Of a DNA stretch of 64,000 nucleotides, positions 1 through 14,695 are shown in pieces. The stretch lies in contig NZ_JASNVW010000002.1 of the NCBI RefSeq assembly GCF_030186535.1, positions 144,001-208,000 on the forward strand. Direction: 5' to 3'. The DNA comes from Ignisphaera cupida. GTDB taxonomy: Archaea; Thermoproteota; Thermoprotei_A; Sulfolobales; Ignisphaeraceae. The stretch's first letter is position 1; the number at the start of each line of letters is the position of its first letter. Under the pieces are notes generated by a model, which did no database searches, was not told where the DNA came from, and was given only the letters and a program-made list of their open reading frames with translations. The position numbers were made by a program, and so were the translations under genes.

Positions 1-1
1 C

Positions 2-1207
2 AAGCCTTGGCTTGGTGCTGGAAGAGTACAGTCACCTGTTTTATTATGGACTGTCAACAGATATGTTGAATATAAAGCAAATCAAGGTCATGCAATAGTC
101 GTTACAATTCTTGGATATAAACATAAGCTATTTTTAGGATCCATAGACAAGGCTAAGGCTGAGGAAATAGCTAGGAGAATCTATGAAAAAGGTGTGAGAA
201 TAGCTGATGTGAAATACGAGGAAATCGTCTTGAATCCGCCACCCCCATATACAACAGATACTTTATTAGCAGAAGCAAACATGCTTTATGGGTTTTCAGC
301 ATCGAAGACAATGTCATTAGCTCAAAACCTATTTGAAATGGGTTTAATAACCTATCATAGAACAGATTCAACAAGAATTTCATCAATAGGCATGGCCATA
401 GCAAGAGAAGCATTAGAGAAAATGAATTTAAGTGCTTTTTACATGCCCAGGTCATGGGATAGGAATATAAGAGGTGAAGACGCACATGAAGCAATAAGAC
501 CAACAACGCCATTGAATTCCGAGGAAGTTGTTGAGGCTATTATGCGTGGTGAACTAGGATTTGCAACAAGAATATCACACGATCATTTAAAGCTTTATGA
601 CCTTATATACAGAAGATTTTTGGCAAGTCAAATAGTGCCTGCAAAAGTATTGTATGCTACAATAGTTATGGATTTTGATGGAATTATACAAACTATTTCA
701 TTACCTGTGGATATAATTGAGCAAGGATTTACATTTGCCTATCCAATTAAAATATACAATCAATTCAGAAAACTTTCAGCTGGCACTATCATAAAGATTG
801 ATCATGTTGAAGTGATAAAAACATCTAGTGTGAGACTCTATAAAGTTTCAGATTTAGTGTCGATGATGAAAAGCCATGGAATTGGAAGGCCAAGCACATA
901 TGCAAAGGCTATAGACAATAATGTTAGACATGGCTATATGATTCTAAGTAAAAAGAAAAAGGTTGCAATTCCAACTAAATTAGGTTTAGATGTCGCTGAC
1001 ATACTTTCAAGAGAATTTCTAAATTTAGTTGGAATTGAATTTACGAGAAACCTTGAAAAACTTATTGATGAAGTCGAGAAAGGATCTATTGATATTAAAG
1101 ATGCACTTGCATTTATAAAATCTAGAGTTGATGAAATATGGATTAAGACACATGATAATCATTTAACACATTTAACACAATTTGATTTAATTTCAACATC
1201 TCTCTAA
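2..1207 (+). CDS. rgy: Reverse gyrase, C-terminal topoisomerase IA part (5' truncated by window edge)
   Basis: This is the C-terminal part of reverse gyrase, the ATP-dependent enzyme that introduces positive supercoils and marks hyperthermophiles. The frame is open from base 2, so the real start lies outside the window; the ATG at 194 is internal. Motifs are GAGRVQSPVL near the left edge, PPPPYTTDTLL, and the active-site motif LITYHRTDSTR. The catalytic tyrosine codon is at 353-355. DAHEAIRPT and GIGRPSTYA follow. The wording of these motifs fits reverse gyrase better than a plain archaeal topoisomerase I, but the helicase-like N-terminal half is not visible. It converges with alba across a 40-base gap. 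Confidence 0.88.
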   Translation, partial: KPWLGAGRVQSPVLLWTVNRYVEYKANQGHAIVVTILGYKHKLFLGSIDKAKAEEIARRIYEKGVRIADVKYEEIVLNPPPPYTTDTLLAEANMLYGFSASKTMSLAQNLFEMGLITYHRTDSTRISSIGMAIAREALEKMNLSAFYMPRSWDRNIRGEDAHEAIRPTTPLNSEEVVEAIMRGELGFATRISHDHLKLYDLIYRRFLASQIVPAKVLYATIVMDFDGIIQTISLPVDIIEQGFTFAYPIKIYNQFRKLSAGTIIKIDHVEVIKTSSVRLYKVSDLVSMMKSHGIGRPSTYAKAIDNNVRHGYMILSKKKKVAIPTKLGLDVADILSREFLNLVGIEFTRNLEKLIDEVEKGSIDIKDALAFIKSRVDEIWIKTHDNHLTHLTQFDLISTSL

Positions 1208-2493: not shown

Positions 2494-2796
2494 TCAGAAA
2501 TAGTTTTCTATTGTTAATCTTATATACAAATATTCTTCACTACAATACATGGCTATTTCTTTAGGCAACGTGTTTTTATCTGTACATGGTATTGCAACTT
2601 CATGATTTTTGAGTAGAGCTTCTTTGATTCTTTGTGGCAACATTTCAATGTTTATTTGACCAACATGTCTACATATTGAGATGTGTGTAAGGAAATGTCT
2701 ATATGTTGATGTATCAGGTGACTTGATTTCACATAGCCTGATACTAGCTTTCAACAACTTTTGTGACCTTTGAAACTTTTTGTTTGACATAGCCAA
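2494..2796 (-). CDS. Possible small protein at the 3' end of the hydrogenase operon
   Basis: An open frame of 100 codons overlaps the last 53 bases of the hydrogenase small-subunit gene in another frame. The part beyond the overlap (from SPDTSTYRHF onward) has protein-like composition and two cysteines, but I recognise no family. The only ATGs before the unique part (2796 and 2790) lie inside the overlapping gene, with no clear ribosome-binding site, so the true start is uncertain. It could be a translationally coupled accessory protein of the complex, or a chance frame. Confidence 0.35.
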   Translation of the reverse strand: MAMSNKKFQRSQKLLKASIRLCEIKSPDTSTYRHFLTHISICRHVGQINIEMLPQRIKEALLKNHEVAIPCTDKNTLPKEIAMYCSEEYLYIRLTIENYF

Positions 2797-3232
2797 GCGC
2801 TAACAAAAGTCCATAGATTATGGCCTCCGGCCTTGCAGGGCATCCAGGAACATATACAACCCTATCTATTTCTACTCCTTGCTCTTTTAGTATTTCTTTT
2901 AGCTTTGGAAATCCTCCTATAGTTGAATATGTATTCCACCAAATTCCTCCACCAACAGCGCAAGAACCTATGGCAACGACTATTCTTGGTCTTGGAACAG
3001 CATTTAATGTTCTTATAACCTTTGGAAGCACCTCTCTCGTCACAGGACCTGTAAACAATATCACATCAGCATGCCTAGGAGATGCAACTAGTTTTACCCC
3101 AAATCTTTCAGCATCAAAGTATGGGGTTAGCGCATCAAGAATTTCAATATCACATGCATTACAAGATCCACTATTCAAATGGAAAACCCATGGACTTCTT
3201 CTAATGTTCTTCAACTTCTCATCTAATTTCAT
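2744..3232 (-). CDS. mbhJ: Group 4 [NiFe] hydrogenase small subunit (MbhJ/HycG/NuoB-like)
   Basis: Small subunit of a membrane-bound [NiFe] hydrogenase. It carries the [4Fe-4S] cluster nearest the nickel site and passes electrons between ferredoxin subunits and the large subunit. The four cluster ligands are Cys24 and Cys27 (SGSCNACD), Cys91 (AIGSCAVGG) and Cys131 (VPGCPARPE). This is the compact NuoB-like form of 162 residues without a Tat signal, as in group 4 enzymes. It overlaps the upstream ferredoxin subunit gene by four bases and is the last clearly identified subunit gene of the operon. Confidence 0.93.
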   Translation of the reverse strand: MKLDEKLKNIRRSPWVFHLNSGSCNACDIEILDALTPYFDAERFGVKLVASPRHADVILFTGPVTREVLPKVIRTLNAVPRPRIVVAIGSCAVGGGIWWNTYSTIGGFPKLKEILKEQGVEIDRVVYVPGCPARPEAIIYGLLLALGYVKQKVSKVTKVVES

Positions 3233-3750
3233 GTAGAAGCGCCAAATCTAATGCTAATTGCTTTAGCAAAGAGTTTTTTTCTACAATCTGAACATAGATT
3301 AATGTATTCTTCTGAAACAGGTTGAGACTTTATAACACTTCTAAGTTCGGATGTAGGCCCTATAGGCTTTCCACATATAGAACACTTACTCGTTCTATGA
3401 ATAACATATTCCTTAAGATCTTCAAGATCTGTTGATGCAAGTTCGAATTCCTTTGTTACACTAATGGCGTTTGCCGGGCAAACGTCAGCACACATTCCAC
3501 AGAATATGCATCTTCCCTTGAAATATTCTATGATTATATTATCTTTTTCAAACTTCATAGATAAAGCATTTGGTGGGCAAATCAATACACAGGCTCCACA
3601 TCCCCAGCACTTTGTATTATCTATGCTTATAGCACCTCTAAATGATTCTGTAACTAATGGAGCTCCAAATGGATATTTAATTGTAACCCTACCTGTCTTC
3701 AATCCAATTGTTACGATTTTAGTTAATTTAGCTATTTTATCTACTTGCAT
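3229..3750 (-). CDS. mbhN: Hydrogenase ferredoxin subunit with two [4Fe-4S] motifs and a zinc-ribbon-like tail (MbhN/HycF/NuoI-like)
   Basis: Electron-transfer subunit of the hydrogenase. Two CxxCxxCxxxC motifs are visible (KCWGCGACVLIC and RCIFCGMCADVC). A C-terminal CxxC pair (SKCSICGKP and NLCSDCRKK) forms a likely zinc ribbon, a known feature of HycF/EchF-type subunits. I chose the ATG at 3750 over the one at 3762 because it sits behind GGGAGGAG; both are in frame. The gene overlaps the end of the large-subunit gene and the start of the small-subunit gene, so expression is tightly coupled. Confidence 0.9.
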   Translation of the reverse strand: MQVDKIAKLTKIVTIGLKTGRVTIKYPFGAPLVTESFRGAISIDNTKCWGCGACVLICPPNALSMKFEKDNIIIEYFKGRCIFCGMCADVCPANAISVTKEFELASTDLEDLKEYVIHRTSKCSICGKPIGPTSELRSVIKSQPVSEEYINLCSDCRKKLFAKAISIRFGAST

Positions 3751-5386
3751 ATCTCCTCCCATAAAACAAATTCACAAATTTTTTAGAATCTGATTTAATA
3801 TCATGTATAACTATTGCTCTATCTGTACATGAAAAACAGGGATCTATACTTGCAATAGTTAGAAATGCATCTGCTAGTGGAGCTCCTCTTAACATAACTT
3901 TTAAAGCAGGAAGATTTTGATATGTTGGAGCTCTAACTCTCCATCTATAAGGTCTTCCCAAGCCAGTTATAATGAAATGCAAATCTTCACCTCTAGGCGC
4001 TTCCACAGCTCCAACAGCTTTTCTAAAAGGTGGAATTTCATAGGATTCCACAGCTATAGGTCCTTTGGGCAAAGCATCTAGAAGCTGCTCCACAATGCTA
4101 ATACTTTCAAAAACTTCATCAATTCTCACTAAAGTTCTTGCTAAGTTATCTCCCTCGCTATATACAGGCACTTTAAACGAGGTGTATCTGTATGCAAAAT
4201 ATGGATAGTTCTTTCTAACATCTCTTTCAAGACCAGAACCTCTTGCAACAGGTCCTACAACACTTAATTTTCTCGCATCTTCCTTGGGTAAAACACCTGT
4301 TCCACTTGCTCTTTTAACTATCTCAGGTACTGAAACCAAAACATCTACAACTTTCTTGAACTCATCTCTAACATTCCTCAAAATTTCCAAGGCTTTTCTC
4401 TTCTTAGACTCATCAATATCTCTTCTAACACCACCAACAATATTTATTCCATAAGTTTTTCTAGAACCTGTTAAAAGCTCTGCAAGCACCATCACTGGTT
4501 CTCTTATTCTCCACAACTGCATAAATCCAGCATCATAGCCTAGAATATGTGCTGCAATGCCAAGCCATAGAAGATGGCTATGAATTCTTTCAATCTCTAA
4601 AACAATTGATCTTATAAATTGTGCTCTTTCAGGTACTTCTATTTTTGCTGCTTTTTCAACTGTTAACACATAACATGATGAATGAACAAACCCACATATA
4701 CCACAAATTCTCTCAGCTAAAAACGGAATGGTTTTGTATGTGAATCTAGGAGATTCAGCAAGTTTTTCAATACCTCTATGAACATGAAAACCTCTGTAAA
4801 AAACATCAACAACTTTTTCACCTTCAACATAAAGTTCAAAGTATTCAGGTTCGTGAAGTATTGGATGGTAGGGGCCTATGGGAAGACCAACCTCCTTCGG
4901 AAGCTCTTCATCAAATTTGCTAAACTCACTCTGAGGTCTGTAATCATATGAAAAATCTTTTCTAAGTGGATAAACATTTTCAGGCCAATCCTGTGGAAGA
5001 ATAAACTTTGGCTTATCTTCATGACCACTTATCCTTATACCAACCATATCCCTTGCTTCAAGCTCACACCATTCTGCAGGTGGAACAATATCTGATATTG
5101 TAGGTGTATAGTCTTTATCAGAACCTGATACTTTCACAACAACATCTACACCCATTTCATCAAGTCCAAATATGTGATACAATGTGAATCTACTGTTAAT
5201 CTCTCTTTCATCAACTCCTGCACATGTTTTTAGAAATGCATTATTTTCGTAAAGCCATTTTGCAAACTCCTTCAAATTATCTTTTGTAATTTCAACAATT
5301 ACTGTATTATCTGAAACTGTTTCTATAAATCCACCCAAATCCTTAATTTTATTTTCAATTGCTTTGAGATTAGATGATAAACTCAT
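3737..5386 (-). CDS. [NiFe] hydrogenase large subunit, NuoC-NuoD fusion (HycE-like)
   Basis: Catalytic subunit for reversible proton reduction. Residues 1 to about 145 form a NuoC-like domain and the rest a NuoD/hydrogenase large-subunit domain, as in HycE; in Pyrococcus Mbh these are separate proteins (MbhK, MbhL). Both nickel-binding pairs are intact: RICGICGFVHS with Cys228/Cys231 and DPCFSCTDR with Cys517/Cys520. It is therefore a real hydrogenase and not a complex I or Mbx relative. After Arg523 a 26-residue tail remains, similar to the tail removed from HycE by its maturation protease. The start ATG at 5386 follows the NuoH-like gene by one base. Confidence 0.93.
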   Translation of the reverse strand: MSLSSNLKAIENKIKDLGGFIETVSDNTVIVEITKDNLKEFAKWLYENNAFLKTCAGVDEREINSRFTLYHIFGLDEMGVDVVVKVSGSDKDYTPTISDIVPPAEWCELEARDMVGIRISGHEDKPKFILPQDWPENVYPLRKDFSYDYRPQSEFSKFDEELPKEVGLPIGPYHPILHEPEYFELYVEGEKVVDVFYRGFHVHRGIEKLAESPRFTYKTIPFLAERICGICGFVHSSCYVLTVEKAAKIEVPERAQFIRSIVLEIERIHSHLLWLGIAAHILGYDAGFMQLWRIREPVMVLAELLTGSRKTYGINIVGGVRRDIDESKKRKALEILRNVRDEFKKVVDVLVSVPEIVKRASGTGVLPKEDARKLSVVGPVARGSGLERDVRKNYPYFAYRYTSFKVPVYSEGDNLARTLVRIDEVFESISIVEQLLDALPKGPIAVESYEIPPFRKAVGAVEAPRGEDLHFIITGLGRPYRWRVRAPTYQNLPALKVMLRGAPLADAFLTIASIDPCFSCTDRAIVIHDIKSDSKKFVNLFYGRRYASR

Positions 5387-5387
5387 A

Positions 5388-6254
5388 CTATTTCACCGTA
5401 AGCATGTAAATTAAAAGTGTTAAAATCATTAAAATAATCATGGTCTTAAGCATAGTTGCAGGCCCTATATCTACACGAGTTCTAGCAAGTATAATACTAA
5501 TGATGCTTGTGGTTATCCATATAATGAATGTTAACAAGGTTATTACAAAGAATGTATATAGCTCTAAATGCACGTTAAACAACTTGAGAAGAACATAGCT
5601 AAGAACTTCTGAAAGAACATATCTTTTAATATGGAGAGAATACATTGCAACTCCTAGCAAAGGTCCTGAAAGCTCTATATTTACTCCACTTGCAATTTCT
5701 GGTTCTGCTTCAGCAATATCAAAAGGTATTCTGCTACTAAGAACATAGCAAGACAAGGCTATTATAATCAACAACATTAATTTTAAAGGAAGAGAAGCAT
5801 TAATGAAAAGAACTGTGGCAAGTGATGGCAAGAAGAAGGATTCTGTAGATAAAACAATATGAAATTCTCTAAAAACTCCTATAGAGGCAAATGGATTATT
5901 AAGGGCTATTGACCTAGTTATAAAGAATGCTGTAGATATTGATAGAAACACTATGAAAAGAGTCTTTACAACTATTAAATTGTTGAATAGAATTAAGATT
6001 TGAAGAAGTATAGCTGTTGAGGCTATAAGAAAAAGTTCTAACATTGTAATAATGAGTATTCCATAACCCGTTATAACAAGTTCTTTACTAAACAACTTAG
6101 CTATGTCAAACCAACTTTGTAGTAAGCTTCTAATAAAACCTCTTGGCCCTACTCTAGACTGAATTAATGATTTAACTTTTCTTTCAATGCTATCATAAAT
6201 AGGTGCTAAGAGAAATGGCAAAAGCAATATTAACAAAATACTAATGAGCACCAA
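5388..6254 (-). CDS. mbhM: Hydrogenase membrane anchor, NuoH/HycD/MbhM-like
   Basis: Integral membrane subunit with about eight hydrophobic segments that anchors the hydrogenase arm and links it to the ion-translocating subunits. Signatures are IYDSIERKVKSLIQSRVGPRG and the acidic loop SRIPFDIAEAEPEIASGVN, typical of the NuoH family. The first codon is TTG at 6254, overlapping the end of the preceding gene (CAT-TAG region) by 14 bases; downstream TTG codons are alternatives. The gene lies directly before the large-subunit gene, the normal place in group 4 hydrogenase operons. Confidence 0.9.
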   Translation of the reverse strand: MVLISILLILLLPFLLAPIYDSIERKVKSLIQSRVGPRGFIRSLLQSWFDIAKLFSKELVITGYGILIITMLELFLIASTAILLQILILFNNLIVVKTLFIVFLSISTAFFITRSIALNNPFASIGVFREFHIVLSTESFFLPSLATVLFINASLPLKLMLLIIIALSCYVLSSRIPFDIAEAEPEIASGVNIELSGPLLGVAMYSLHIKRYVLSEVLSYVLLKLFNVHLELYTFFVITLLTFIIWITTSIISIILARTRVDIGPATMLKTMIILMILTLLIYMLTVK

Positions 6255-6573
6255 GTATTATCACCATTATGAGAAACGCTATTGTTAATAAAATCCCTGC
6301 CCAAAGAGATGAAAGTAAAAGTGATTTTTCGGCTGATTGCTGCAAGAATTGCACAAATATTGAGAAACCCTTAGCTATTCTAGCCACCCCCTCCTCGACA
6401 TTGTGAAGATAAAAGATTTCTCTTATCTTTTCAGCATTTGAAAGATAAGACATTTTTACTGGAAATATGGACTTTTTTATCTCAATACCATAGACTATCC
6501 TTGGCGCTAAAGTTGATACTCTATTACTTTTCCCAGAAACTTCTTCTAACTTTTCTTCTCTCCTGTTATTCAA
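6241..6573 (-). CDS. Small MbhI-like subunit (amphipathic helix plus one membrane span)
   Basis: A protein of about 110 residues with a charged N-terminal half, an amphipathic stretch (EEGVARIAKGFSIFVQFLQQ) and a C-terminal membrane span. This resembles the C-terminal arm of NuoL and the separate MbhI subunit of Mbh, a lateral helix that clamps antiporter subunits. I place the start at TTG 6573, seven bases after GGTGGTG; this TTG overlaps the TGA of the preceding antiporter gene. The hydrophobic anchor and position support the call, but sequence conservation in this family is weak. Confidence 0.6.
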   Translation of the reverse strand: MNNRREEKLEEVSGKSNRVSTLAPRIVYGIEIKKSIFPVKMSYLSNAEKIREIFYLHNVEEGVARIAKGFSIFVQFLQQSAEKSLLLSSLWAGILLTIAFLIMVIILGAH

Positions 6574-8075
6574 GGTCTTGCACCACCAAGCCAACTCTCA
6601 GAAACTCTAAAGATTTTTTGAGACTTATATACAATATATATTACCAGTATTAAGAATATTAGCGAAATTGTCATGATCATACCCAAAATAGTTCCATAAA
6701 TTATTTGCTGCTCAAATAAAATTGAAAATGATAGTGCAACAGAAATTGCTATTGTTGTAACCACTGGTAAAGCTAGCTGTCTTAATAAATTTAAATCTAT
6801 TCGAGGAAGTATCCTTATTGTTGAAGAGCCAAAGTGCGTCATCAGGTATTTAGCTCCATATCCTATGCTAAAAACAATTTCAATAGCTACAACAATAAGT
6901 AGAACAACTATTGGCGAAGCTGATATGAGGTTAGTTACAAGTGAGAGTATTGTTAAGAATTTTGCTAGGAAACCTGGGAGTGGGGGGACACCAATAAGAG
7001 ATAGAATTGATAGTAAAACTGCAGTACTTTCTAATGGATATACTCTGGATATGTATCCTAAGCTTCCAATATCTCTTGTATGAGCAATTATTTCAACAAC
7101 TCCTGAATCCATAAACAATGCAGCTTTGAAAAATGCATGCGCCAGTACATAGAATAAGGTTGCTTGCAAAGCCTCAACAGAATTAAACTTCACATACATG
7201 CTTAGCAAAATACTCATAACACTTGTATGCGATATTGTGCTATAGGCTAGAATCCTCTTTATATCTGATTGTGCAAGAGCTAGTAATCCACCATATACAG
7301 CTGTGATGCTTCCACAAATCATTAGGGTATATACATAAACATCTTTATTTATCGATGGATATAAAGATAACAGGTAAAGTCCATAAATTCCCATTTTAAC
7401 CATAAGCCCAGATAACATTGAAGATGCAGGTGCTGGAGCTATTGAATGAGCATCTGGTAACCAAAAGTGTAAAGGTGCTATAGCAGCTTTAGCTAAGAAT
7501 CCCACAACACATAGAATTGTTAGTATAGGTGAGCCTTGTATTGCTGGCTCAATACTTGTTATACTCACTGTATATGCTTTTTCAACACCTGTTAATGCAA
7601 TTAATGCAAACAATGTTATGTCTGCTGGAACCATTGACACTAGGAGATACCTTATACCTGCTTCAAGAGCATTTCTATTACCTTGTGTAAACCACTCAAA
7701 AGTTATTAGTACAAATCCTATGAGTTCTGCAATAATCCAAAACGTAATAAACTCTATCAAGTATTTGGATATAAATGTGAATGTAATTGAAAGCGAAAAA
7801 GCATCTACAATTAACTGTAAATAAGGTAGTCCATACTTGTGTTTAGCATAGTTAGCTGTATATATTGAAACAATACATGCTATTACACAACTGGAAATGG
7901 CAAGTATTTTAGCAAAGATATTTTCAACAAACAATAAGGTGTAGAGCAAAATAAGAATATATCCAAGAATTCGAAGAATTGCACCATGTTTTTTATCAAA
8001 TAGTTTTGCAGAACCACCTAATAATATAAGTATTGTTGAAAGAATATATGTAGTATATCTATATAGGTCTGCCAA
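6570..8075 (-). CDS. Antiporter-like proton/sodium-translocating subunit (NuoL/M/N, MrpD/MbhH type)
   Basis: Polytopic membrane protein of 501 residues from the Mrp antiporter/complex I pump family. Hallmark residues are present: Glu117 in the span FWIIAELIGFVL, Lys196 in GFLAKAAIAPLHFWLPDAH, and Lys227 in SGLMVKMG. This subunit thus keeps the charged residues used for ion translocation, unlike its partner at 9636-11201. It is encoded between the four-cluster ferredoxin and the MbhI-like gene. With the Mrp genes further upstream, the complex has two antiporter-type subunits. Confidence 0.9.
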   Translation of the reverse strand: MADLYRYTTYILSTILILLGGSAKLFDKKHGAILRILGYILILLYTLLFVENIFAKILAISSCVIACIVSIYTANYAKHKYGLPYLQLIVDAFSLSITFTFISKYLIEFITFWIIAELIGFVLITFEWFTQGNRNALEAGIRYLLVSMVPADITLFALIALTGVEKAYTVSITSIEPAIQGSPILTILCVVGFLAKAAIAPLHFWLPDAHSIAPAPASSMLSGLMVKMGIYGLYLLSLYPSINKDVYVYTLMICGSITAVYGGLLALAQSDIKRILAYSTISHTSVMSILLSMYVKFNSVEALQATLFYVLAHAFFKAALFMDSGVVEIIAHTRDIGSLGYISRVYPLESTAVLLSILSLIGVPPLPGFLAKFLTILSLVTNLISASPIVVLLIVVAIEIVFSIGYGAKYLMTHFGSSTIRILPRIDLNLLRQLALPVVTTIAISVALSFSILFEQQIIYGTILGMIMTISLIFLILVIYIVYKSQKIFRVSESWLGGARP

Positions 8076-8571
8076 AGCTTGTCACAGCCCCTATAATTTT
8101 TGCTAAAGCTCTTTTCTTAGCCTCATCAAATACGAATTGAGGAGTGCTAATGACTATGGCTTTTGTTGGACACATGACACTGCATGCAGGTTCTAAACCC
8201 TCGCCTCTGAGTTTTCTACACAAATCGCACTTCATTGATGTTTTTGTAACTACATCTAGCTCTGGTATTCCATAGGGACAGGCATAGAGACATGCCATGC
8301 AGCCAATACATCTAGATACATCAACATATACAGCCCCACTCTCATCTCTTCTCATAGCTTTTGTTGGACAAACCTCTACACATGGTGCTTTGGCGCAGTG
8401 AAAACATGATATTGGCTTTATCAATCCTCCACCAACATCGTAAAGTCTTATGTAAGGTGTTCCCTCATGTATGAATTCACAAACAGATGAACATATGCCA
8501 CATCCAATACACTTGCCATAATCTATCCATCTAAGCAGTATTGGATTTCCAAATCCCTTATCCACATTCAT
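8059..8571 (-). CDS. Four-cluster polyferredoxin (HycB/CooF-like electron-transfer protein)
   Basis: A 170-residue protein with sixteen cysteines in four [4Fe-4S] motifs: Cys21/24/27/31, 56/59/64/68, 88/91/94/98 and 115/118/130/134. This is the pattern of HycB, CooF and DmsB-type subunits that carry electrons between a dehydrogenase and a membrane enzyme. It overlaps the GltD-like flavoprotein gene by four bases and the antiporter gene by seventeen, so the three are co-translated. No formate dehydrogenase or CO dehydrogenase gene is present, so the flavoprotein is the best candidate partner. Confidence 0.9.
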   Translation of the reverse strand: MNVDKGFGNPILLRWIDYGKCIGCGICSSVCEFIHEGTPYIRLYDVGGGLIKPISCFHCAKAPCVEVCPTKAMRRDESGAVYVDVSRCIGCMACLYACPYGIPELDVVTKTSMKCDLCRKLRGEGLEPACSVMCPTKAIVISTPQFVFDEAKKRALAKIIGAVTSFGRPI

Positions 8572-9611
8572 ACACCTCTAAGAAATACTTCAATAGCTTT
8601 TGCAGCATAGAGTCCATGTTTACATGCCTCACCTAGTTTTGTAGGCCCTGTTAAAACATCTCCAGCTACAAAAACATTTGTGTTTCCAAGTCTATAACCT
8701 TTTGAGATTATATAACCTTTCTCATCCAGAAACTGCTTAAGCTCTGCGCATTCAAATGTGAATGGAGGTGTTGAAATTTCTCCTATAGCAGGTATTACGA
8801 GATCTGCCTCCAAAATAAACTCACTACCTGGAATTGGTATTGGTGCTGGTCTACCAGTTTTATCTGGTGGGCCAAGCCTCATTTTCTGAAATTCAACAGC
8901 TTTAACAGTGTTATTTTCTGTAAGTATTTTTGTTGGTGCTGCCAACTCAACCCATTTAATACCTTTCATTATAAGATCCTCTATGTAGTATTCACCACAG
9001 GGAGCTTCCTTTTTCGTTCTTCTATAAACTAAGTAAACCTCTTCAGCGTCAAGCCTTAAAGCCTCTTCAGCAGCATCAACAGCACTTAAACCAGCCCCAA
9101 TCACAATAACCTTTCTAGGTTTTGGCGGAGCCTCCTTAATAAGTCCATGTTCAATAAGTTTTAACCTGTAGAGAAAGGTAAGAGCATCAACAACTCCTCT
9201 AGCTTCCTCACCTGGAACACCAAGTTTTCTAGATCTCCATGTTCCAGTTGCAATAAGAATAGCGTGATATTCCTTCATGAGATTTCTCAAGTCAATAACT
9301 TGTTTAACAAAGTCGTCACCTTCATCATGTCTCTCACCACAAACAACCTTTGTGTTTAAGTATATCTTTACACCAAAGTTTTTAACTAAATCCTCAGCAC
9401 CTTCCAACACATCGCTGGGCAATATTCTATAGGATGGTATGGCTAATGTTGCCATACCTCCCACTAATGGTTGTTTATCATAGATATCAACCTCAAAACC
9501 CTTACAGACTAGGTAGCCTGCTGCAGAAAGACCTGCTATACCAGCACCAACGATAGCTACTTTCTTTCCTGTTGTGCTTGGCTTTGACTTACACAAGAAT
9601 GTGAATTTCAT
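8568..9611 (-). CDS. NAD(P)H-linked FAD oxidoreductase (GltD/NfnB-like) inside the hydrogenase operon
   Basis: Flavoprotein of the glutamate synthase small-subunit type, with two Rossmann dinucleotide-binding sites. The FAD site is VAIVGAGIAGLSAAGYL near residue 20. The NAD(P) site is VIVIGAGLSAVDAAEEA, followed by VYLVYRRTKKEAPC. A C-terminal FAD contact is NTNVFVAGDV. It lacks the N-terminal iron-sulfur domain of full GltD. Iron-sulfur clusters are instead supplied by the overlapping polyferredoxin gene. Together they look like an NAD(P)H-ferredoxin module attached to the hydrogenase; direction of electron flow is not shown by sequence. No glutamate synthase large-subunit gene is nearby. 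Confidence 0.85.
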   Translation of the reverse strand: MKFTFLCKSKPSTTGKKVAIVGAGIAGLSAAGYLVCKGFEVDIYDKQPLVGGMATLAIPSYRILPSDVLEGAEDLVKNFGVKIYLNTKVVCGERHDEGDDFVKQVIDLRNLMKEYHAILIATGTWRSRKLGVPGEEARGVVDALTFLYRLKLIEHGLIKEAPPKPRKVIVIGAGLSAVDAAEEALRLDAEEVYLVYRRTKKEAPCGEYYIEDLIMKGIKWVELAAPTKILTENNTVKAVEFQKMRLGPPDKTGRPAPIPIPGSEFILEADLVIPAIGEISTPPFTFECAELKQFLDEKGYIISKGYRLGNTNVFVAGDVLTGPTKLGEACKHGLYAAKAIEVFLRGV

Positions 9612-9635
9612 TGTACAAATCCCAATTTTGAATAT

Positions 9636-11201
9636 CTATGAAGCTGGAATTAAAAATTCGTAGTATGATTTATATCTTTCAACAATCTCGTATCCAATAC
9701 TATTTATGTAATTTCTTATAACAGGGTTAACCATGTAGAGAAAGCCTAGCGCAATGATAATTGTTATGCAAGTAGCTATAACAATATCAGCTAATAAAGT
9801 ATTTTTCAATCTCTCATCAGCTTTAGATTTCTCAATAGCTTTAAAGGTATTGAAAATTAATTTAAAGTAGCCTATGGCTGAAATACCTGTTGCCAAAGCT
9901 AATATAATAGCGCCATAAACCTTGCCAACATCGATGAAGGCCTTGAATATTAGGTATTTACTCCAGAAACCTATAAGTGGTGGAACTCCCAGCAAATTTA
10001 AAACCCCTATAACCATACCTGCTAAAGCTATTTTATATTTTCTTAAAACTCCTAACGTGTCTATGGATCTTCCCATTGCCACTATTGCTATACCTGCTCC
10101 ATAGAATAGTAGTGATTCTGCAAATGAGTTGGATATTGTATGTAGTATTGCTGCTGAGACACCTTCGCAAGTATCAATTGTTAGTGACATGAATATAAGC
10201 CCTAAATGACTTATTGTGCTAAATGCTATAAACTTCTTTACATCTGTTTGAATAAGCATGAGAAAAGAGCCTATAAAAACAGTTACTATAGCAAGTATTT
10301 GTATTGCTATAAGTGCGCATTCTCTATATTGTGAAACTATAGAACCTCTTCCAAATATTGTGTAGAACATTCTAATAGCTCCATATATACCTATCAAGTC
10401 TATTACACCTACAAAAATAGCTGAAATAGGTGTTGGAGCTTCTGGAGTTGCATCTGGAAGCCAGAAATAGTTTGGAAATATTGCACCTTCAAATGTCCAA
10501 GTCCATGCTGTAAGAGCTATAATCGTAGTTGCTGCAAGAATAACATTACCAAAAACACTTCCACTAAAAGGTATTGAAGCCTCCACACTTCTGCTCTTCA
10601 ACGCTATGTCGGCAATGGTTAAAGTACCAAAAGATGAATAGGCTATGAAAGCTGATAGCAGGTAGAAACTTGATGATATGATACCTGCAAATGCATATCT
10701 TATCGCAGCTTCTATAGACTTTGGACTATCTCTAAAATATGCTACAAGAGCGAAGGATGATAAGGATAATACTTCTAGCATAACAAAGAAGTTGAAGTAA
10801 TCCCCTGTGTAAAGACATCCCATAGATCCTGCTAAAAGTGTTAAGAGCAATACATAATATAGGTATATTCTTGGGAACCTCATATACCATAAGCTATACA
10901 GGCCTGAAAGAAACATTAACGATGATGCTAATAATCCCAGAAGTGCATTCAAAATATCAATTTCATAGATTATTCCCAGAGGTGGTGGATAACCTCCGAA
11001 GAAGTAAAGTTGTATACCACTTTTTGAAACCTTCAGGAAAATATATATAGAGATTATAAGGGCAATAAAAAGGTTTAGTACTGCAAACAATGCAGAAAAA
11101 ATATTTCTTCTAATTATAACCCCTAAACCTGCAAGAATAAAGGCCATTGCAATTAGATAAAGAGGTGCTAAACCAATTATTGGATCCAACAATGTATTCA
11201 T
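9636..11201 (-). CDS. mrpD: MrpD-like antiporter subunit with altered charged residues
   Basis: Second NuoL/M/N-type subunit, about 521 residues and 14 or so membrane spans. The conserved glutamate is present (Glu143, FVMLEVLSL). The two usual lysines are not: the TM7 motif reads FEGAIFPNYFWLPDATPEAP, with Glu238 where Lys is expected, and the TM8 motif reads GVIDLIG, with Asp268 where Lys is expected. The later lysine in GFWSKYLIFK remains. The start is ATG 11201, five bases after GGGTG; a TTG at 11213 is less likely. It follows the MrpE gene with overlap. Confidence 0.88.
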   Translation of the reverse strand: MNTLLDPIIGLAPLYLIAMAFILAGLGVIIRRNIFSALFAVLNLFIALIISIYIFLKVSKSGIQLYFFGGYPPPLGIIYEIDILNALLGLLASSLMFLSGLYSLWYMRFPRIYLYYVLLLTLLAGSMGCLYTGDYFNFFVMLEVLSLSSFALVAYFRDSPKSIEAAIRYAFAGIISSSFYLLSAFIAYSSFGTLTIADIALKSRSVEASIPFSGSVFGNVILAATTIIALTAWTWTFEGAIFPNYFWLPDATPEAPTPISAIFVGVIDLIGIYGAIRMFYTIFGRGSIVSQYRECALIAIQILAIVTVFIGSFLMLIQTDVKKFIAFSTISHLGLIFMSLTIDTCEGVSAAILHTISNSFAESLLFYGAGIAIVAMGRSIDTLGVLRKYKIALAGMVIGVLNLLGVPPLIGFWSKYLIFKAFIDVGKVYGAIILALATGISAIGYFKLIFNTFKAIEKSKADERLKNTLLADIVIATCITIIIALGFLYMVNPVIRNYINSIGYEIVERYKSYYEFLIPAS

Positions 11202-11205
11202 ATTT

Positions 11206-11712
11206 TCACCCAAAAATTTTCATAGCATATTCTTCAAAAACCTTTGATATTTCCTCTCTAGCTTTTTTGGGATCTGTTGTTGTAGCATATATCCAATGAA
11301 CATATAACACCTTCTTCTCTTCATCAACATCTACAACACATGTGCCTGGGGTGTTGGTGATGGAGCCAGCAACTAGGGTTATTCCATAATGTGTTTTTAC
11401 ATTGAATGGAACTTTAACAATAGCAGGTCTAATATCAATTTTAGGACTAAGAACAATTTTTATCACCATTGCATGAGCCTTAACCTCATCAATAATCATA
11501 TACCGAAAATAGTAAAATACAAGGTAGAAAAACCTCTTTAAATCTCCAAACACGATCTCCCTTTGAATAATGAATGAAGTTAAGAAAGTTGTTAATATTA
11601 CAGATCCTATTAATCCAAGAACTAAACTAAACTCTGCTATACCTCCTGTAAAAATTACGTAGAACAGATATACGTACAAGAATACTGTTATATATGTTAA
11701 TACTTTTTTCAT
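11206..11712 (-). CDS. mrpE: MrpE-like subunit
   Basis: MrpE/MnhE/MbhA family membrane subunit of 168 residues. It has two or three N-terminal spans and a cytoplasmic domain containing AGSITNTPGTCVVDVDEE, matching the family motif SITLTPGT, then LYVHWIY. In Mrp complexes it is required for assembly at the antiporter interface. It overlaps MrpC and MrpD genes by a few bases at each end, as expected within one operon. Confidence 0.88.
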   Translation of the reverse strand: MKKVLTYITVFLYVYLFYVIFTGGIAEFSLVLGLIGSVILTTFLTSFIIQREIVFGDLKRFFYLVFYYFRYMIIDEVKAHAMVIKIVLSPKIDIRPAIVKVPFNVKTHYGITLVAGSITNTPGTCVVDVDEEKKVLYVHWIYATTTDPKKAREEISKVFEEYAMKIFG

Positions 11713-12101
11713 ATCCTCACCTTTCTCACATTTGTAGTGCCATAGTATTTGTAAAACAAAATTATCAATCCTATGAGAAACATGTTCACTGCAAGACCAA
11801 TAACTATAGCAGTGAGAACCAGGGCCTGTGGAAGTGGATCTACAGCTGAAGAAACAAATTGATGAATTTCTGTAACGTTTCTTGGAATTTCATGGTGTAC
11901 AGCTATTGATGGATAAGCTTCAGAAGTTCTTCTAAACCCAATGAAAATAGCAAAACTGTTTATACTATCTGAGAAAATGGTTAAAGCTATGAATTTCTTT
12001 ATTAGTGAAGGCTTTGAAAAAACTCCGTAAAGTGATATAGCTGTATTTATTATTAGAGAAATAACAATTGATGTTAACAGAAATGATTCTACATTACTCA
12101 T
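11709..12101 (-). CDS. mrpC: MrpC-like (NuoK-type) subunit
   Basis: Small NuoK/MrpC-family protein with three hydrophobic spans and the C-terminal signature ALVLTAIVIGLAVNMFLIGL. The ATG at 12101 is chosen because it follows GGAGGAGAGG; an in-frame start at 12122 would overlap the previous gene further. A periplasmic loop of about 40 residues between spans two and three (HEIPRNVTEIHQF) is typical of MrpC and absent from NuoK. Confidence 0.87.
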   Translation of the reverse strand: MSNVESFLLTSIVISLIINTAISLYGVFSKPSLIKKFIALTIFSDSINSFAIFIGFRRTSEAYPSIAVHHEIPRNVTEIHQFVSSAVDPLPQALVLTAIVIGLAVNMFLIGLIILFYKYYGTTNVRKVRI

Positions 12102-12903
12102 GCTCCTCTCCTCCAATAACATGTTTTACTTCTTCATCTCTTAAAGATAATAGGACAATACCTAGAGACAACCCTCCAACAACAGCTACAGACTCTGAAA
12201 CATTGAAGAAGAATAGTATTCCACCCAAGGGTCTGTCTAGAAACCATGAGGGCATGGTATACTGAGATCCTATTCTAATCATGTTTTGGAAAATATATGC
12301 ATAACCTCCAAAGATTAATGCTTTGATAAGTAAAAACACCGCTGTAAGGACTATGAATATTAACCCTATCCACCTAATAATCAACAGCTTGTCTATGGTT
12401 ATTTTTTTCTGAGCTATGAACTCTATTGAAAATGCTACAACAATTAACGCTATGGCTACAGTCATAAATGATCCTCCTTGGAAACCACCTCCAGGTGTTA
12501 AGTGACCATGGTAAGCAAGTGATACTCCTGCAACAAGTATTAAGGGGGCCACGATTTTAGTAGTTGTTTTAACTATTAGCGATAATCCTTTATTGCTAAT
12601 ACCTTGAACAATATTTGAACCTCTAAACAATGCTAAAAGCCCAATCAATGCTATGAACAACACAGAAGTTTCAAAATATGTATCAAGCCCTCTATAATCC
12701 CAAACAATAGATGTAACACCTTCAGGTGCCATAGCACTTAACTTTATTTCCCATGGATTATACGTATAGTTCAAGTAGCTTACAGCTAAAGGCCTTAGAT
12801 TATATGGAGCTATTGGTCCCAACCCTCCATAAACCATTAAATAGGAAAGAATTATTGCCAATATAGCCATGGAAAGTCCTGCAACAATATCACTTACCCT
12901 CAT
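12094..12903 (-). CDS. MbhE-MrpB fusion subunit
   Basis: A 269-residue membrane protein that joins two modules. The first 110 residues resemble MbhE, with a signature around DYRGLDTYFETSVLF. The remainder is the MrpB domain, with VAPLILVAGVSLAYHGH followed by LTPGGGFQGGSF, the most conserved MrpB motif. These are separate proteins in Pyrococcus Mbh. The start ATG overlaps the stop of the upstream MbhD-like gene (ATGA arrangement). Confidence 0.86.
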   Translation of the reverse strand: MRVSDIVAGLSMAILAIILSYLMVYGGLGPIAPYNLRPLAVSYLNYTYNPWEIKLSAMAPEGVTSIVWDYRGLDTYFETSVLFIALIGLLALFRGSNIVQGISNKGLSLIVKTTTKIVAPLILVAGVSLAYHGHLTPGGGFQGGSFMTVAIALIVVAFSIEFIAQKKITIDKLLIIRWIGLIFIVLTAVFLLIKALIFGGYAYIFQNMIRIGSQYTMPSWFLDRPLGGILFFFNVSESVAVVGGLSLGIVLLSLRDEEVKHVIGGEEHE

Positions 12904-13151
12904 TCCTCAAACCTCTCAGTCTTTTTGATTAGTGTTATTGTGAGTAGTGGTAGAAGACCAACAGATACTGGGAGATATACCAGAACTATGTCTGGAGCCA
13001 TTAGAAGGTAGTATAATAGAGCATAGCATGTGCTTTGAACAGCTGAAAAAAGTGTTGCTATTATTAAGTCCTTTTCTTGTACAGCAAGCCATGTTGAGAC
13101 AACACTTATTATAGCAGCTATAAAAGCGATTATCAGAGGTGTTACGTCGAT
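12900..13151 (-). CDS. mbhD: MbhD-like / MrpB N-terminal subunit with a probable ATC start
   Basis: A frame of 83 sense codons encodes three membrane spans that match the MbhD/DUF4040 family: VSTWLAVQEKDLIIATLFSAV, then YYLLMAPDIVLVYLPVSVG, then a charged tail. It fills the slot between MrpG and MbhE-MrpB where this subunit belongs. The frame opens after TGA at 13158-13160 and contains no ATG, GTG or TTG before the first span. ATC 13151 lies seven bases after AAGGTG and gives a natural N-terminus (x-DVTPLIIAF). An overlapping frame at 12916-13188 gives a cysteine- and serine-rich sequence unlike any membrane subunit and is not credible. Confidence 0.75.
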   Translation of the reverse strand: MDVTPLIIAFIAAIISVVSTWLAVQEKDLIIATLFSAVQSTCYALLYYLLMAPDIVLVYLPVSVGLLPLLTITLIKKTERFEE

Positions 13152-13525
13152 TGTTTTTCACCTTTTCCATTCTTTTCAGATAATGCATCGTATATTATTG
13201 GCTGTAGGGGAGCTGCCCTAGCTCTATATGCTGCTCTTGCAAGTGCATGAGAACCTGCTTGGGCTAATACCATTGTTATAAGGCTTGTTGTAAAGGCTAC
13301 ACCAGCTAAAATGAATCTTGTTTCTCCAAGAGGTTCATATCCCAAAGCTATTAAAGCAGCTCCAAGCATTGGAATAACAGCTCCACCAATAGCTCCAACA
13401 GTTGCTGCATGAAGTCTTGTAAAAAAGTTTGGAAGCCTAATTAAACCTATAGCACCAACAAAATCACAAAAAACACCTATGATTACCAATATCAAACCTA
13501 AAACAATTAGAATTAAATCAATCAA
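13142..13525 (-). CDS. mrpG: MrpG-like subunit
   Basis: MrpG/MnhG family protein with three spans. Signature: GVFCDFVGAIGLIRLPNFFTRLHAAT, closely matching the family motif G-x-IRLPD-xYTRLHAAT, then GAALIALGY. I prefer TTG 13525, which follows GGGTG by six bases; GTG 13534 is an alternative. It overlaps the MrpF stop region upstream and the MbhD-like start downstream. Confidence 0.88.
   Translation of the reverse strand: MIDLILIVLGLILVIIGVFCDFVGAIGLIRLPNFFTRLHAATVGAIGGAVIPMLGAALIALGYEPLGETRFILAGVAFTTSLITMVLAQAGSHALARAAYRARAAPLQPIIYDALSEKNGKGEKQST
13158..13164 (-). promoter_or_regulatory. Shine-Dalgarno sequence for the MbhD-like gene
   Basis: On the minus strand AAGGTGA lies within the end of the MrpG gene. 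Counting from the last G of GGTG, seven bases separate it from ATC at 13151. The same seven-base gap precedes ordinary TTG starts elsewhere in the window (6573, 51928, 59706), so the geometry supports initiation at ATC. Confidence 0.55.
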
Positions 13526-13526
13526 T

Positions 13527-13808
13527 TTAATCACCCATTTCTCTAGCCTCAAGGTATTTAGCCACATAGATATCTAAAACAAATATCCATAGAGAAAGTG
13601 AAAGTGCACATACAGCTATCAATGGTGATCTCAGGTATACTGATAGAATAACCATGAAAGCAGCTAAGTCATATCCAAGAGAATCTATAGCCAAAACTCT
13701 ATCAGGAATTGTAGGACCCTTAAAAACCCTGACAAGATATAATGTAAACGAAATTACATAGAGTATTAGCAAAACACCTAGTAAAGACATGACAAAGTCA
13801 TATATCAT
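13527..13808 (-). CDS. mrpF: MrpF-like subunit, first gene of the hydrogenase operon
   Basis: MrpF/MnhF family membrane protein with three spans. The motif YLVRVFKGPTIPDRVLAIDS is diagnostic. An upstream extension of the frame to 13892 exists, but the family begins just before the first span, so ATG 13808 fits best (MIYDFVMSLLGVLL). It is ten bases after AGGTG. ATT at 13811 would have seven-base spacing. The operon promoter lies immediately upstream, at about 13904-13916. Confidence 0.85.
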   Translation of the reverse strand: MIYDFVMSLLGVLLILYVISFTLYLVRVFKGPTIPDRVLAIDSLGYDLAAFMVILSVYLRSPLIAVCALSLSLWIFVLDIYVAKYLEAREMGD

Positions 13809-13903
13809 AATAAGCAAGCACCTAAAAATCATTTGCAAAGGCCTAGGGTTATAAACTTTATCACCCTCTATTATTAGATTTTCTTGTAACAATTGTAAAT
13901 AAG

Positions 13904-13916
13904 TTTATATATATCT
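13904..13916 (-). promoter_or_regulatory. Putative TATA element of the hydrogenase operon
   Basis: The minus strand reads GATATATATAAA about 100 bases before the MrpF start. It is the only strong TATA-like run between the hydrogenase operon and the divergent methyltransferase gene on that strand. Transcription would start near 13880-13890, leaving a leader of roughly 75 bases. No operator-like inverted repeat is evident. Confidence 0.4.
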
Positions 13917-14119
13917 ATAAACAACTTCAGAAATGCATAAGGCATTGTTTCAAATGTTTGAATTTAATTAGGTCAGGATCCAGAGTGCAAAAATATTCCT
14001 AAATCCCTTTAAATGCTATAAACATTGATTTTTTCCTTGGCTTTACACAACAATGTTTTAAGCAAAATTTTATTAATTATTTTAAGAAAGTTGTTTTAAA
14101 ATATTGGTGGTTTTAAAAT

Positions 14120-14695
14120 ATGGATGATTTTTTCGCTATTTTAAGAATTGTTGAAAGAAAATGTGATGATTTTGGTGTTCCTAGGATAGATATTGATGAT
14201 GGTATTGCATTGTATTCTTTGCTATATGTCTTAGCAACTGAGAAAAACAATGTTGTTGTAATTGATGCTGGTGCTGGAGTAGGTTATTCAACGTTGTGGT
14301 TGTTAAAAGCATTGGAAGATGCCTGTGCTGAGGGGGTTTTATATGCTATTGAAAGAGACAAAACTAGATTTTTAGAGTTAGAGAAAACTCTAGGAATGTT
14401 GAAAGCTAGTTGTGTAAAGGTGTATTCTATTAATGACGATGCTATTGAGTTTGTTGAAAGAAAATTTGATTTCGAAACTCTAAACTTTATCTTTATAGAT
14501 ATTGATAAGAATAAATACTTTGACATGTTCATAGCTGCAAAAAATAAACTAGCTAAAGGAGGGTTAATGGCTTTTCACAATGCATACATGGTTAAAAATA
14601 TTGTAGAAAAAATCTTGAATGAAGCACATAAAATTAACTGGTTTGCTACCATAATACCTACTGATGAAGGGATACTGCTTCTAAGAAAAAGATAG
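14120..14695 (+). CDS. SAM-dependent methyltransferase (O-methyltransferase-like)
   Basis: Class I Rossmann-fold methyltransferase of 191 residues. Motif I is VVVIDAGAGVGYSTLWLLKA. An acidic strand end with YAIERDKTR fits the SAM ribose contact. The motif FIFIDIDKNKYFDMF resembles the metal-binding region of COG4122 O-methyltransferases. GGLMAFHNAY matches the family G-G-x-x-x-x-D/H-N segment. Start ATG follows GGTGG. The substrate is unknown. It stands alone between the hydrogenase operon (divergent) and the cellulase gene (convergent). Confidence 0.75.
   Translation: MDDFFAILRIVERKCDDFGVPRIDIDDGIALYSLLYVLATEKNNVVVIDAGAGVGYSTLWLLKALEDACAEGVLYAIERDKTRFLELEKTLGMLKASCVKVYSINDDAIEFVERKFDFETLNFIFIDIDKNKYFDMFIAAKNKLAKGGLMAFHNAYMVKNIVEKILNEAHKINWFATIIPTDEGILLLRKR

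Follow-up and report, generated by a model that had tools for sequence, protein, structure and literature searches.

The 64,000-nucleotide stretch of Ignisphaera cupida DNA analyzed here (the window; NCBI RefSeq assembly GCF_030186535.1, contig NZ_JASNVW010000002.1, forward-strand positions 144,001 to 208,000) contains a single, tightly packed operon on the minus strand (13,892-2,494) that, with a probability of about 0.68, codes for a membrane complex linked to NADPH, evolving H2 and coupled to Mrp; specifically, this would be a [NiFe] hydrogenase of the formate hydrogenlyase (FHL) type with an NADPH-oxidizing flavoprotein replacing the formate (or CO) dehydrogenase. The gene arrangement is already known from genome papers but is uncharacterized, and the evidence of cassette exchange described below makes it more testable. 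The new observations are the linkage of the GltD-like flavoprotein gene to the hycB-like gene in 48 of 48 loci, the sorting of HycB by partner along with apparent cassette exchange, an invariant arginine pair, and the presence of GltD-HycB pairs elsewhere.

Gene content of the operon

The operon, on contig 2 of a 1.74 Mb genome (99.9% complete), consists of 16 genes that overlap or are separated by gaps of no more than about 24 bp, from MnhF (first) to a 100-amino-acid gene (last). The genes were confirmed by family searches and by the positional conservation of their counterparts in relatives:

13527..13892, minus strand: MnhF/MrpF (PF04066, E=1e-13)
13142..13567, minus strand: MnhG/MrpG (PF03334, E=6e-15)
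12900..13154, minus strand: MbhD-type subunit (PF13244, E=8.5e-12; orthologs in relatives)
12094..12903, minus strand: MnhB, MbhE/F type (PF04039, E=3.6e-19)
11709..12122, minus strand: MnhC, NuoK-like (PF00420, E=1.9e-17)
11206..11712, minus strand: MnhE (PF01899, E=1.1e-37)
9636..11213, minus strand: MnhD1, MrpD/MbhH-type antiporter subunit (PF00361, E=2.3e-46; best PDB match 6cfw_H)
8568..9611, minus strand: GltD-like flavoprotein (FAD, NADP(H)) lacking Fer4_20 (NF009409, 439 bits, cut-off 343; YRR motif)
8059..8571, minus strand: HycB-like protein with four 4-Cys motifs (PF13247, E=1.5e-20; groups with GltD-partnered HycB)
6570..8075, minus strand: MnhD2, second antiporter subunit, HycC/HyfB-like (PF00361, E=2.9e-50; PDB 6cfw_H, 7z0s_C)
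6241..6594, minus strand: 117-amino-acid MbhI-like small membrane subunit (no family match; position conserved in relatives)
5388..6254, minus strand: NuoH/HycD-like membrane subunit (PF00146, E=1.4e-31)
3737..5386, minus strand: [NiFe] hydrogenase large subunit, NuoC/D fusion, HycE-type (PF00329, PF00346, PF00374; PDB 7z0s_E, E=1.2e-135)
3229..3762, minus strand: HycF/NuoI-like ferredoxin subunit (Fer4_7, E=4e-16; best NCBIfam match PRK12387, FHL Fe-S subunit)
2744..3232, minus strand: NuoB/HycG-like small subunit (PF01058, E=2.2e-26)
2494..2796, minus strand: 100-amino-acid conserved gene with a C...RH...C motif (no family match; 10 distinct sequences, window included, aligned there)

A preliminary interpretation made from the letters and open reading frames alone (the sequence-only reading) had described a 15-gene set. 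Every gene it named is found on the minus strand in the expected order, and its seven Mrp-type genes and second antiporter subunit each match the corresponding family, but the count is 16, with the terminal 100-amino-acid gene and an MbhD frame that has no ATG, GTG or TTG ahead of the first conserved residues, indicative of either an unusual start codon or an assembly error. A TATA-like stretch was noticed by eye upstream of MnhF, at about 13,921-13,903.

The large subunit (549 amino acids) contains both NiFe cysteine pairs, RICGICGFVHSSC and DPCFSCTDR, along with a C-terminal tail; the cysteine motifs are invariant columns in the large-subunit alignment, which agrees with the catalytic [NiFe] hydrogenase proposed originally. 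Its best match among solved structures is Escherichia coli HycE (PDB 7z0s_E, 456 bits), compared with 262 bits for the Mbh of Pyrococcus furiosus (6cfw_L), and the closest named relative of the locus is an Ignisphaera sp. metagenome-assembled genome (MAG), with 79% identity in the large subunit. HypD is encoded elsewhere in the genome. No formate or CO dehydrogenase was found within the operon, where a GltD-like gene is present instead; the absence of these enzymes asserted in the sequence-only reading thus holds for the operon but not for the genome, which encodes FdhA-like and CdhA-like proteins, neither adjoining the operon. The genome further encodes, likewise away from the operon, a second Mrp-linked [NiFe] complex that lacks HycB (L016) and a soluble group-3b-like hydrogenase locus (L015; contig 3, about 264.7-268.6 kb, judged by eye).

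The flavoprotein and its HycB partner

The flavoprotein (347 amino acids) exceeds the NCBIfam cut-off of PRK12770, 'putative glutamate synthase subunit beta' (439 vs 343 bits). The N-terminal two-cluster ferredoxin domain of full GltD (Fer4_20) was not detected in it by family searches, so that the protein belongs to a short GltD subfamily without this domain. Its gene overlaps by 4 bp that of the HycB-like protein, which has 16 cysteines in four cluster motifs, as the sequence-only reading had it, and matches the HycB-type proteins of the hydrogen-dependent CO2 reductase, formate hydrogenlyase and AorA (PDB 7qv7, 7z0s_B and 8c0z_C). The YRR motif is invariant across 38 hydrogenase-linked GltD members, with the arginine pair (197/198) 100% conserved; these arginines are expected to bind the 2'-phosphate of NADP. 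Seven positions (5, 46, 57, 97, 98, 176 and 334) are typical of the same 38 proteins and rare in stand-alone members; they are shared, where covered, by the GltD-HycB fusions linked to aldehyde oxidoreductase (AOR) that are discussed below.

Apparent exchange of input cassettes among relatives

For the gene-order comparison suggested in the sequence-only reading, 147 genomes of the order were searched, and fetched neighborhoods and 80 named loci were compared. Four layouts were identified: GltD-HycB between the Mrp block and the core, as in the window; GltD-HycB upstream of the core with Mrp downstream, as in Staphylothermus marinus; GltD-HycB upstream of the core with no Mrp adjoining; and GltD-HycB downstream of the core (L072, L074-L077, L079). 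Across these layouts, the gltD-like gene immediately precedes hycB, in the same orientation, in all 48 hydrogenase-linked loci, a count that takes in duplicate fetches and close relatives. In other loci, CO dehydrogenase (CooS) with HycB adjoins the same core (L052, L059, L060, L080), several of these with a CooC-like ATPase gene, or else, in more distant relatives, formate dehydrogenase (FdhA) with HycB.

In the phylogenetic tree of the large subunit, all 37 GltD-linked rows fall inside one 57-row set (Shimodaira-Hasegawa-like approximate likelihood ratio test, SH-aLRT, 100), within which CooS occurs at three separate places. In particular, the CooS-linked L052 is a neighbor of the window in this tree, the two large subunits being 75% identical, and the approximately unbiased test rejects a tree that unites the four embedded hydrogenases with CooS (p-AU 1e-55). 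In the HycB tree, by contrast, there are separate GltD-partnered (99/97) and CooS-partnered (100/97) clades. Given that HycB sorts by partner whereas CooS cassettes are scattered in the hydrogenase tree, a dehydrogenase together with its HycB would constitute an exchangeable input cassette. Such cassettes appear from the trees to have moved repeatedly onto a conserved hydrogenase core, in whichever direction the exchange went, which suggests that HycB is an adaptor traveling with the dehydrogenase. The proposal that NAD(P)H, most likely NADPH, feeds an H2-evolving Mrp-linked complex gains from this comparison: GltD-HycB accompanies this hydrogenase clade in dozens of genomes, at the position that CooS-HycB or FdhA-HycB occupies in relatives. 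NADPH input thus seems well supported by linkage and homology. A short gltD gene alone is not diagnostic, since the orphan genes of this type elsewhere in the phylum mostly have neither HycB nor hydrogenase adjoining (20 contexts).

GltD-HycB pairs outside the hydrogenase loci

The I. cupida genome itself encodes a natural GltD-HycB fusion adjoining genes for a MoaD-like protein and an AOR (L017; C5:8509-10116 and 10537-12453), an arrangement that is kept in two relatives (L136, L137) and likely represents an NADP(H)-linked AOR. The AlphaFold model of the fusion has a predicted TM-score (pTM) of 0.89 and a mean predicted local distance difference test (pLDDT) of 88. A PDB fold search with this model retrieves proteins of the Nfn/Stn/GltD family, but long alignments spanning both domains have a root-mean-square deviation of 14-16 Å, so that the domain arrangement of the fusion is a prediction only. 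Separately, L017 contains, at 13400-14400, repeated segments with the recurring peptides SIPFFGF and NPKNGIE on both strands, probably a CRISPR array.

Short gltD genes whose products are 48-50% identical to that of the window adjoin hycB along with fdhA or cooS in two genomes of Thermococci: in a MAG (L228), the pair is beside an FdhA-HycB-antiporter cluster and, in a Thermococcus sp. (L229), beside a CooS-HycB cluster. These gene pairs suggest that NADP-linked input modules exist in Thermococci as well. Precedents for the pair come from two other enzymes. Purified Fdh3 of Thermococcus onnurineus comprises FdhA, two Fe-S proteins of ~18 kDa and an NfnI-like protein of 39 kDa; the NfnI-like subunit has two arginines at the NADP phosphate, and the enzyme's rate of NADP+ reduction is about seven times that with NAD+. 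It works in both directions with NADP(H), and formate alone suffices for it to reduce NADP+ (PMC8965080). In AorABC, a four-cluster ferredoxin is located 9.5 Å from the FAD of the NAD subunit (PMC10413684).

Earlier descriptions and related systems

The sequence-only reading knew of no characterized example of the arrangement. This stands insofar as no biochemical work was found, but the gene set had been described in S. marinus (PMC2678158), Thermosphaera aggregans and Desulfurococcus kamchatkensis (PMC3035292), with a model linked to an NADPH dehydrogenase. Anderson et al. in 2009 listed Smar_1057-1071 with the nearby SudA-like Smar_1055 in S. marinus and suggested sulfur respiration (PMC2678158); the gene order of this locus (L064) agrees with Table 4 of that paper, Mrp included. 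A 'dehydrogenase-linked MBX complex' was reported by Spring et al. in 2010 from T. aggregans, D. kamchatkensis and S. marinus; sudA stands in for fdhA there, and protons or sulfur were proposed to accept the electrons of NADPH (PMC3035292). The complex was stated to be missing in Ignisphaera aggregans (PMC3035270).

These operons (Tagg_0050-0059, D. kamchatkensis, Smar_1055-1071) share the gene set of the window, namely a SudA/GltD-like gene replacing fdhA, HycB and a HycE-type core. The layouts differ: in S. marinus, the core precedes the Mrp block, whereas in the window GltD-HycB separates the two; the operons of T. aggregans and D. kamchatkensis, in contrast to that of the window, have no Mrp genes. 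The Mrp-Mbh-Fdh and Mrp-Mbh-Codh complexes of Thermococcus (HydDB group 4b) show the same trimodular layout of Mrp, NiFe core and dehydrogenase with an electron-transfer protein (PMC4731540), but the window has an NADP(H) flavoprotein for the dehydrogenase and its own type of HycB. The Codh and formate hydrogenlyase clusters of T. onnurineus have been transferred to P. furiosus (PMC4731540). Thus, among the group 4b traits, the NiFe motifs in a HycE-type subunit and the Mrp genes are present, and a formate or CO dehydrogenase is absent from the operon. The E. coli formate hydrogenlyase (Hyc, FdhF; PDB 7z0s) provides the best large-subunit match and shares HycB and HycF counterparts, but the operon of the window lacks a formate dehydrogenase and has a full Mrp set. 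The ferredoxin-coupled Mbh (group 4d) is less similar, the large subunit of the window being closer to HycE and HycB being present. Fdh3 resembles the window in its NfnI-like 39-kDa NADP-binding protein and ~18-kDa Fe-S proteins, but is soluble and formate-fed, with no hydrogenase or Mrp (PMC8965080). AorABC of Aromatoleum aromaticum likewise has a four-cluster ferredoxin joining a FAD/NAD subunit to a metalloenzyme (PMC10413684); that metalloenzyme, however, is a tungsten AOR, and the sequence search with the GltD-like protein did not retrieve AorC.

Electron flow, energetics and alternative readings

Under the favored reading, NADPH would hand its electrons to the FAD of the GltD-like protein, from which they would pass to the four HycB clusters and then, via HycF and NuoB, to the [NiFe] site, where H2 would be formed. 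The membrane arm (NuoH, two MrpD-type subunits, Mrp B/C/E/F/G and MbhD) would couple this flow to Na+/H+ movement. Gene content, conserved linkage, cofactor motifs and the apparent exchange of cassettes can be read from the sequences, whereas physical assembly, the direction of electron flow and coupling to ions are deduced. At 90 °C and pH 7, we estimate potentials of roughly -0.50 V under 1 bar H2 and roughly -0.40 V under 1 mbar for the H+/H2 couple, values near that of NADPH. Because NADPH and H2 are this close in redox potential, the direction probably depends on H2 pressure and the ion gradient.

Several observations weigh against the favored reading. NADPH-driven H2 formation has little driving force at high H2, which makes a large ion-pumping role questionable, and the Mrp-less version of Thermosphaera was thought not to be energy-conserving (PMC3035292). 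In MnhD1 of the window, a Glu replaces the Lys of transmembrane helix (TM) 7 that is found in MnhD2 and in MnhD1 of the nearest relatives (L051, L143). The group-3b-like soluble hydrogenase could perform the same redox chemistry; four loci (L066, L166, L073, L188) keep a GltD-type HycB with no GltD, FdhA or clear CooS adjoining the core; the structural model is of the AOR-linked paralog rather than the operon's own GltD and HycB; and no biochemical characterization or purification of a GltD-linked complex was found in the literature. As for the energetics, formate-driven H2 formation at 80 °C was calculated to yield only -2.7 kJ/mol, and T. onnurineus reportedly grows by this reaction, whose energetics are described as unclear (PMC4731540), so that a small margin does not exclude coupling.

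The same near-equilibrium of the redox couple is compatible with a complex that runs mainly in reverse, oxidizing H2 to supply biosynthetic NADPH while the ion gradient assists the reaction or is itself assisted by it. The conservation of the NADP(H)-binding motif and the bidirectionality of Fdh3 with NADP(H) (PMC8965080) fit this scheme; nevertheless, we consider it unlikely given that the core belongs to the HycE type, which evolves H2, and that both S. marinus and Desulfurococcus amylolyticus are reported to produce H2 (PMC2678158, PMC7143981).

If H2 formation required both NADPH and reduced ferredoxin, in the manner of bifurcating [FeFe] hydrogenases (confurcation), the energetic difficulty would lessen and there would be enough drive for ion pumping. 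The large subunit of Nfn, in which the FAD is the bifurcating flavin, is a homolog of the GltD-like protein, and HycF and HycB would supply several clusters. In contrast to Nfn-type enzymes, however, the GltD-like protein lacks the two-cluster domain, and neither an NfnA-like small subunit nor a second flavin domain was found when looked for in the operon. With a single flavin domain and no NfnA-like partner, the bifurcation floated in the sequence-only reading is unsupported, no second electron branch being visible in the sequence; moreover, Fdh3, which has a similar pair, needs only formate to reduce NADP+ (PMC8965080). Confurcation therefore appears rather improbable.

The prospect that the hydrogenase is fed by ferredoxin like Mbh, with GltD-HycB forming a separate soluble enzyme, for example, for NAD(P)H-dependent polysulfide reduction, is very unlikely. 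Such a role was proposed for Smar_1055 in 2009 (PMC2678158), GltD-HycB follows the core in the clades with the downstream layout, and the short GltD is stand-alone in most other Thermoproteota loci viewed; but three kinds of HycB-dehydrogenase cassettes adjoin this core, two of which replace one another, and L016 already provides the genome with an Mrp-linked NiFe complex devoid of HycB. Finally, a formate hydrogenlyase assembled in trans, with the orphan FdhA of contig 3 docking on the operon's HycB, is hardly credible: this FdhA-like protein has the Cys-His active-site motif of hydrogenase-linked FdhA, but its gene is distant, with no hycB neighbor, the operon's HycB is in the GltD-partnered clade, and D. 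amylolyticus, reported to have HycB and mfh genes, produced no H2 from formate, albeit having no fdh at all (PMC7143981).

For Mrp-linked group 4 hydrogenases, HydDB lists formate, CO and ferredoxin as donors; the GltD-linked clade points to NADPH as a further one. More tentatively, and with considerable doubt, the NADPH-linked complex could represent a third input class of these hydrogenases, a crenarchaeal 'complex I with protons as acceptor' that would occur widely among hyperthermophilic crenarchaea and be exchangeable for CO and formate cassettes, and in which NADPH, possibly confurcated with ferredoxin, would drive or be driven by an ion current. If the complex pumps ions, it would tie the NADPH pool of crenarchaea that ferment sugars and peptides to H2 and ATP. 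The putative role of HycB as a traveling adaptor makes input swapping directly testable.

Other features of the window

MnhD1 contains an Asp near the TM8 Lys site, a feature common to part of its clade. At window positions 1-1207 (L020:2537-6208), the window edge cuts a 1223-amino-acid frame that appears, by eye, to be reverse gyrase-like; it is followed by an Alba-like gene at 1248-1523.

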